NCBI RefSeq assembly: GCF_009796845.1
Contig: NZ_CP047025.1
Span: 992,001 to 1,056,000 of the forward strand
Source of the DNA: Cobetia sp. L2A1
GTDB lineage: Bacteria; Pseudomonadota; Gammaproteobacteria; Pseudomonadales; Halomonadaceae
Length of the DNA: 64,000 bases
Direction: 5' to 3'
Positions 51,095-52,402 of this stretch are shown piece after piece; position 1 is the first letter of the stretch, and the number at the start of each line of letters is the position of its first letter. The position numbers were made by a program, and so were the translations under genes. The notes beneath the pieces are model-generated. The model saw only the letters and a list, made by a program, of their open reading frames with translations, did no database searches and had not been told where the DNA came from.

Positions 51095-52402
51095 ATGAGC
51101 GAGACGGACCAGACCCAGCCAGCCGCTGAGCAAACTCAGCCAGAGCCGCAGGACCCGAACCAGAAATCCCGAAAGCCCAAGCGTCGTCGCCGCAAGCCGC
51201 GCCGCTCCCAGTCCAAGTGGAGTCTTGATCAGTTCCAGGTAGCCCCTGCAGCGGGTCAGTGGCGCTTCCACGATTTCGATCTGCCGTTGCCGCTGATGCG
51301 TGCCATCCAGAAAGCCGGCTTCGAATATTGCACCCCGATTCAAGCCCAGACCTTCGAGAAGGCGCTATTGGGCGGTGATGTGGTCGGTCGCGCTCAAACA
51401 GGCAGCGGCAAGACAGCTGCCTTCCTGATTGCCACGCTCGCCTATTTCCTTGAGGAAAAGGCTCCAGAGGGCCAGAAGCCGGGCGCTCCGCGTGCAGTCA
51501 TCATCGCGCCGACTCGTGAGCTTGCGTTGCAGATAGAAAAGGACGCCAAGGCGTTCTCCGAATTTGCACGCATCTCTGTGGCATGTGTCGTCGGTGGCAT
51601 GGACTACCAGAAGCAGCGCGAGCGCCTCGAACGCAAGGTTGATCTGTTGGTCGCCACGCCAGGCCGTTTGCTTGATTTCCATACCAAGCGCGATGTCGAT
51701 CTCTCCGAGACCGAAGTGCTGATACTGGACGAAGCGGATCGCATGTTGTCGATGGGCTTCATTCCTGACGTCAAGCGCATCATCCGTGCGACGCCGAAGC
51801 CGGAAGAGCGTCAGACACTGCTATTCTCCGCCGAGCTGTCATCTGACGTGCTGGGTCTGGCTGAGCTGTGGACTCACAAGGCCGCGCAGGTTGAGGTTGA
51901 ACACGAAGCCTCTTCCACCATGGCTGCGGGCGACAGCGGCACTGTGCACGGCTATACCGTCAGCGATGATGACAAGCTGCGTCTGCTGATCAATCTCGTC
52001 AAGCAGGCAGAGATGGAGCGCGTGGTGGTCTTCGGAAATACCCGTAATCTGGTACGTCGTATCGATGCTGGCTTGCGAGATGCCGGTGTTGAGGTCGGCC
52101 TGATGTCGGGTGCCGAATCCCAGGCAGCGCGTCTGGAGGCACAGGATGCCTTCCGTAATGGCAAGCTCAAGGTGCTGGTGGTCAGCGATGTTGCAGGCCG
52201 TGGCCTGCCGCTGGAAGATGCGACCCACGTGGTCAACTTCACGCTGCCGGAAGTGCCGGAAGATTACGTGCACCGTGCTAGCGGCAGTGATGTGACCTTG
52301 ATCAACTTCATCGGCGAGGAAGATGTCTTTTCTCTGCCGGAGATTGAGGATTACATTCAGGAAGCGCTGCCGCGTGAAACACCGCCACAAGGCCTTCTCT
52401 AG
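51095..52402 (+). CDS. RhlB-like DEAD-box RNA helicase with degenerate motifs III and VI
   Basis: 435 residues. A Lys/Arg-rich N-terminal tail (residues 1-50) precedes the RhlB-type Q region RFHDFDLPLPLMRAIQ...YCTPIQ, Walker A AQTGSGKTAAF, Ia APTRELALQI, Ib TPGRLLDF and II DEAD (residues 212-215). Motif III is SAE (residues 245-247) instead of SAT, motif V reads SDVAGRGL, and motif VI is reduced to YVHRASGSDVTL: the GRTGR part is missing. The rest follows RhlB closely, so this is no frameshift. RhlB normally binds RNase E. ATP turnover may be impaired. Confidence 0.88.
   Translation: MSETDQTQPAAEQTQPEPQDPNQKSRKPKRRRRKPRRSQSKWSLDQFQVAPAAGQWRFHDFDLPLPLMRAIQKAGFEYCTPIQAQTFEKALLGGDVVGRAQTGSGKTAAFLIATLAYFLEEKAPEGQKPGAPRAVIIAPTRELALQIEKDAKAFSEFARISVACVVGGMDYQKQRERLERKVDLLVATPGRLLDFHTKRDVDLSETEVLILDEADRMLSMGFIPDVKRIIRATPKPEERQTLLFSAELSSDVLGLAELWTHKAAQVEVEHEASSTMAAGDSGTVHGYTVSDDDKLRLLINLVKQAEMERVVVFGNTRNLVRRIDAGLRDAGVEVGLMSGAESQAARLEAQDAFRNGKLKVLVVSDVAGRGLPLEDATHVVNFTLPEVPEDYVHRASGSDVTLINFIGEEDVFSLPEIEDYIQEALPRETPPQGLL

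Follow-up and report, generated by a model that had tools for sequence, protein, structure and literature searches.

Loss of motif VI from the degradosome-type helicase RhlB in Cobetia: a probable genus-wide pseudohelicase

RhlB of Cobetia has lost the GRTGR segment of motif VI, and we consider it rather likely that the protein is a pseudohelicase throughout the genus, probably serving as an ATP-hydrolysis-independent RNA-binding protein or as a part of the degradosome. The gene was studied in a window of 64,000 nucleotides from Cobetia sp. L2A1 (NZ_CP047025.1, positions 992,001 to 1,056,000), together with its counterparts in other genomes of the genus, family, order and class. The features that mark a pseudohelicase are found together here: the DEAD-box fold is predicted to be kept, catalytic residues are lost, and purifying selection is evident from pairwise NG86 comparisons. 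A pseudo-helicase had already been proposed in the first-pass annotation of this DNA, and it is still the likeliest reading, given that the loss of GRTGR is common to 6 of 6 Cobetia genomes and that purifying selection persists.

The open reading frame of rhlB extends from its first in-frame ATG (51005) to 52402 (+), which gives 465 aa. For comparison, P0002 and P0003 (Cobetia cluster representatives), P0004 (an intact Chromohalobacter protein) and P0051 (a Halomonas protein) were used. The best NCBIfam match of the window protein is RhlB (NF002340). The cut-off of that model (564 bits) is not reached by the window protein (421.7) or by P0002 (420.9); regarding the intact relatives, P0004 falls just short of it (559.4) and P0051 lies above it (576.4). 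The gene order xthA-rhlB-dinG-aroG is kept in all 13 chosen loci (6 from Cobetia and 7 from outside the genus), and on the basis of this shared neighbourhood the window gene is taken as the RhlB ortholog. A second, intact RhlB, for which the first-pass annotation had advised looking, was not found when the window genome was searched for DEAD-box matches; the four other matches are only 32-38% identical and have SAT and GRxGR intact. A plasmid origin of rhlB was considered and rejected, as plasmids match distantly only (best hit with 66% identity over 53% of the query). The coordinates of the gene, its motifs and the putative partner gene are summarized in Table 1.

Table 1. Positions, within the window, of rhlB, of its helicase motifs and of rne
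Feature	Position	Strand	Remarks
rhlB, degenerate RhlB-type DEAD-box protein	51095..52402	+	start common to P0002 and P0003; 435 aa
Q motif region	51266..51349	+	kept; P to S in one of six Cobetia (L006)
Motif I (Walker A), AQTGSGKT	51392..51415	+	kept; one position T in the family, S in Cobetia
Motif Ia, APTRELA	51506..51526	+	kept
Motif Ib, ATPGRL	51653..51670	+	kept
Motif II, DEAD	51725..51748	+	kept
Motif III	51818..51844	+	SAT to SAE in 6/6 Cobetia genomes
Motif V	52178..52213	+	VATDVAGRGIHI to VVSDVAGRG[LF][PA]L
Motif VI site	52256..52309	+	HR kept, GRTGR lost, net 5 residues (15 nt) shorter
rne (RNase E), putative scaffold partner of RhlB	12933..16907	-	NDPR and RNNPR kept, PKR/PRR absent

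Read in frame from nucleotide 52256, the window gene gives PEDYVHRASGSDVTLINFIGEED. Across the motif VI region the consensus of 129 outgroup loci (some of them redundant) is PEDYVHRIGRTGRAGAKGVSISF, as compared with PEDYVHRA-----S[GF]SDV[TS]LI[NS]F in the six Cobetia genomes. The opening His-Arg pair is retained, both ATP-contacting arginines of the motif are gone, and the pattern HRxGRxxR, which is motif VI of active DEAD-box ATPases, is absent. The first-pass annotation had described an RhlB-type DEAD-box gene with an in-frame loss of the arginine-finger motif; gene order and alignment confirm this description, and the lesion had been located correctly to within two codons. Its estimate of roughly six to eight missing residues was too high, since the alignment to the 129 outgroup loci gives a net loss of five. 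It had also stated that the protein aligns everywhere before and after this site, which is true of the domain 1 motifs but not of motif III, motif V or the further fixed changes, which lie mostly in domain 2. The origin that it suggested, a deletion between two CGT codons, finds no support, since numerous substitutions have built up. In motif V of Cobetia, ATD has become VSD and RGIHI has become RG[LF][PA]L. The terminal histidine of this motif, which corresponds to H321 of E. coli RhlB (PMC5758883), has given way to P or A in every one of the six Cobetia; its fraction among 109 loci of the family is 1.0, and among 20 loci of the order 1.00 (rounded values, some loci being redundant). Regarding the positions that are invariant in the family (at least 98% of the 109 family loci), all six Cobetia are altered at 10 of 120 before residue 300 and at 24 of 82 after it, the latter count including the five deleted columns. 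Judged by its sequence, Cobetia RhlB has lost the half of the ATPase site that domain 2 provides, with the motifs of domain 1 kept. The lesions in motifs III and V, and the asymmetry of constraint between the domains, are additional to the first-pass annotation. Near the C-terminus, residue 457 of the 465-aa reading (52373-52375) is Cys in 99% of the family loci and Arg in all six Cobetia.

Besides the six Cobetia genomes examined, motif VI is missing from the representatives of three Cobetia protein clusters (58 member sequences in all, of which the representatives only were read). Among 225 distinct RhlB or RhlB-like cores, drawn from 274 fetched loci with redundancy, motif VI is present in 220, and the remaining 5 are all from Cobetia. 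Losses of motif VI or of SAT outside Cobetia were not found among the examined family loci, 20 further families of the order and the best 90 of 168 class matches. (Note that the family search gave matches in 269 of 275 genomes at 1e-130, part of which were read, and that the class search gave matches in 168 of 274 genomes, of which the 90 best-scoring were read, one being the window genome. The class-level rows are the best DEAD-box matches to P0004, mostly 45-50% identical and RhlB-like at least; a paralog in G087 reaches 45% identity and overlaps their range.) The first-pass annotation had named an intact motif VI in all close relatives as evidence against its reading. Relatives outside Cobetia do have the motif intact, and none of the six within the genus does, so the loss is dated to the Cobetia stem. 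The six family genomes without a match at 1e-130 were rechecked together with G038, and motif VI proved intact in five of them: in G173 over the full length, in G126 over residues 91-424 only, and, in split frames, in G087, G245 and G288. The matches in two incomplete genomes, G286 (71% complete) and G038 (75%), were no more than 40-41% identical, none of them at the level of RhlB. The split genes (L313/L318 in G087, L314/L326 in G245 and L315/L322 in G288), each in at least two frames and with motif VI intact, may reflect sequencing errors or frameshifts; completeness is below 90% in two of these three genomes. In loci L158 and L162 the motif III region reads FSAT.

The divergence on the Cobetia stem is specific to RhlB. 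When six Cobetia and seven outgroup loci from five genera were compared, the mean identity of RhlB was 0.66 between Cobetia and the outgroups versus 0.856 among the other genera; the corresponding values for the control genes were 0.681 and 0.744 (xthA), 0.733 and 0.786 (dinG), and 0.823 and 0.840 (aroG). In the maximum-likelihood tree of RhlB the Cobetia stem has a length of 0.534, which is 0.44 of the total length, compared with 0.312 (0.23) for dinG, 0.126 (0.15) for aroG and 0.410 (0.23) for xthA, with modest clade support in the four trees (89, 89, 50, 99). In absolute length the xthA stem approaches that of RhlB, and this counts against specificity.

Within Cobetia, pairwise dN/dS of RhlB (NG86 counts) ranges from 0.00 to 0.09 over 15 pairs, which is mostly above the neighbour genes and clearly purifying. 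The reading frame is open in all six genomes at pairwise dS of up to about 0.8. When the domains were compared, using pairs with dS of 0.1-1.5 in both domains, Cobetia (four genomes, 6 pairs) gave a dN/dS of 0.022 in domain 1 and 0.121 in domain 2, the latter being not far above the 0.090 of Salinicola; the ranges in five other genera were 0.016-0.065 and 0.012-0.090, respectively. The ratio of dN in domain 2 to dN in domain 1 was 7.1 in Cobetia and 2.1, 1.5, 1.2, 1.1 and 0.8 in the other genera. The dS filter removed 33 of 36 pairs of Vreelandella, the values of which rest on 3 pairs, and none in the other genera.

An AlphaFold2 model of Cobetia RhlB (48 sequences; mean pLDDT 83.5, pTM 0.58) keeps the DEAD-box fold, and the top PDB rows of a Foldseek search are DEAD-box helicases or complexes holding one. 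At the deletion the model has a helix (388-394), a loop of six residues and a strand (401-406), and in the model of the intact control P0004 a loop of nine residues lies between helix 372-379 and strand 389-395. Taken together, the models and the Foldseek search predict that the deletion shortens the catalytic loop and leaves the fold unbroken.

The sequences show the following course. On the Cobetia stem, RhlB lost both arginines of motif VI that contact the gamma-phosphate, the ribose-contact position of motif V and the threonine of motif III that links the domains, and it kept the motifs of domain 1 (Q, I, Ia, Ib and II), a domain that is under strong purifying selection. From DEAD-box enzymology it may be expected that nucleotide and RNA are still bound through domain 1, and that ATP hydrolysis at a useful rate, and its coupling to unwinding, are lost. 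Useful hydrolysis or unwinding is not expected, since replacing either of the motif VI arginines of Prp28 by alanine (R527A, R530A) is lethal; on overexpression these mutants are dominant-negative, which would fit retained binding (PMC4227776). The second and third arginines of motif VI contact ATP, and the His-Arg pair is described as its sole non-flexible part (PMC2948006, which prints 'motif IV' for the His-Arg passage; it is taken from the context as motif VI). In eIF4A, the change of SAT to AAA leaves RNA binding in the presence of ATP and abolishes unwinding (PMC2948006). The position of the terminal histidine of motif V aligns, in our own alignment, with Asp502 of Prp28, which contacts the ribose of ATP and a motif VI arginine (PMC4227776). 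However, growth is unaffected by a double-alanine change in motif III of Prp28, by D502A at the motif V position and by H523A (PMC4227776), and a natural change of SAT to FAT is fixed in RhlE-like proteins of Nostocales (PMC8190605); the case is therefore carried by motif VI, and the other lesions by themselves prove nothing. Cobetia RhlB has probably taken on another task in RNA metabolism, one that needs no motor. With less certainty, its present role would be that of an ATP-hydrolysis-independent RNA-binding or adaptor subunit, which would most likely still sit on RNase E, through domain 2.

The main rival to the pseudohelicase reading is decay, in which RhlB would be dispensable in Cobetia, its work covered by another DEAD-box protein, and the gene would be on its way to being lost. 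The weaker constraint on domain 2 (dN/dS about five times that of domain 1), taken with the Q-motif change in L006, fits ongoing decay too; the window genome has four DEAD-box paralogs with intact motifs, and Pseudomonas syringae Lz4W is reported to grow unaffected when rhlB and rhlE are disrupted (PMC10783127). We nevertheless judge decay unlikely: the frame has stayed open in every Cobetia genome over the synonymous divergence given above, with dN/dS below 0.1, and the dN/dS of domain 1 falls inside the range of genera with intact RhlB. An assembly error or strain artefact may be dismissed with near certainty, and it was rejected, as the identical lesion occurs in all six Cobetia genomes and in the three cluster representatives.

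Two further readings were weighed. One, raised as a mechanism in the first-pass annotation, is an ATP-locked RNA clamp: with ATP and RNA bound, the protein would close and not let go again. DEAD-box proteins are generally known to be able to clamp RNA when hydrolysis is blocked, and the ATP-binding motifs of domain 1 are kept in Cobetia. The dominant-negative effect of the Prp28 motif VI mutants (PMC4227776) points the same way. Yet the residues with which domain 2 grips ATP in the closed state, namely both arginines of motif VI and the ribose-contact position of motif V, are the very ones lost, so closure should be weakened rather than locked; the clamp is thus left unsupported, and we hold it to be improbable. 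The other is that the protein is still an active helicase, in which an arginine elsewhere, e.g. residue 457, could have taken over the catalytic role. The fold is predicted to be retained, and pseudoenzymes with migrated catalytic residues have been discussed (PMC10211241), but the loss of motif VI is accompanied by the lesions in motifs III and V, and only two family-invariant positions have become a fixed arginine, residue 129 (Lys in the family) and residue 457 (Cys in the family). Arg457 is a possible but unlikely migrated arginine, and continued helicase activity of this kind seems very improbable.

Cobetia RhlB, read as a pseudohelicase, may be compared with three known systems. With RhlB proper, the ATP-dependent RNA helicase of the RNase E degradosome (NF002340), it shares gene order, family match and the motifs of domain 1, and it differs in the absence of GRTGR from motif VI, the change of SAT to SAE, the lost motif V histidine and the low score against the family model. 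The eukaryotic pseudohelicase Utp25/Def (PMC9539457) likewise has a conserved DEAD-box fold without catalytic motifs, but there the DEAD sequence itself is missing and, of the motifs, no more than Ia and portions of Q, IV, V and VI remain. In Cobetia the loss is confined to the catalytic half of domain 2 and to motif III, and it affects a single genus and the ortholog of a known enzyme. PriA of Deinococcus radiodurans (PMC4504706) is also a bacterial helicase whose helicase motifs are poorly conserved in one lineage; its ATPase activity is absent, DNA binding is kept, and there is evidence for partner binding. It differs in being a DNA helicase with motif loss across a phylum, and not a DEAD-box RNA helicase of the degradosome. 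Among the matches listed for the open-licence literature, as far as their text was available, there was no report of an RhlB without motif VI or of a bacterial DEAD-box pseudohelicase; the open-licence papers found for Cobetia and RhlB deal, by their titles, with biosurfactants, sponge microbes or P. aeruginosa biofilms. The need of the degradosome for a helicase motor is hard to separate from its need for RNA or protein binding, and Cobetia would offer a natural case of separated functions, in which the ortholog, its locus and a first domain under selection are present and the ATP-hydrolysing half is gone. Calls of 'ATP-dependent helicase' in annotations should be checked for intact motifs and not be taken from names.

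Membership of Cobetia RhlB in the degradosome is presumed, and on the side of RNase E there are candidate motifs. In E. coli, RNase E binds domain 2 of RhlB, including residues 340-352, which overlap motif VI (PMC5758883); the P. aeruginosa system uses the AR1 motif for binding RhlB and NDPR for binding PNPase (PMC11964227). In RNase E of Cobetia, NDPR occurs in 5 of 6 loci (the sixth ends early) and RNNPR in 6 of 6. In the window protein the RNNPR region is at 14157-14174 (-), residues 912-917, together with what lies just upstream. Of 19 other Halomonadaceae, 17 have PKR or PRR ahead of RNNPR, and none of the six Cobetia does. The segments ARESIKAAEQ, SEARKAL.KARERR and NKRRQRNDRG.RRK occur in 6 of 6 Cobetia and in 0 of the 19 other family members, many of whose sequences end before the C-terminus. 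Neither RNNPR nor a ligand of it is named in the main text of two RNase E papers that were searched for the motif. RhlB and RNase E may tentatively be pictured as having co-evolved into a motor-free module for RNA capture, with a helicase subunit of the degradosome that does not hydrolyse ATP; in this picture the loss from RhlB on the Cobetia stem would go with a remodelling of the RNase E tail in the genus, which became longer, lost PKR/PRR ahead of RNNPR and gained new conserved segments. Such co-evolution is a lead only. The open frames of RNase E comprise 1322-1476 aa in Cobetia versus 948-1295 in the 19 other family members. The tail of the Cobetia protein is unusually long, and a His/Gln-rich stretch is located near residue 1124 of the window protein.
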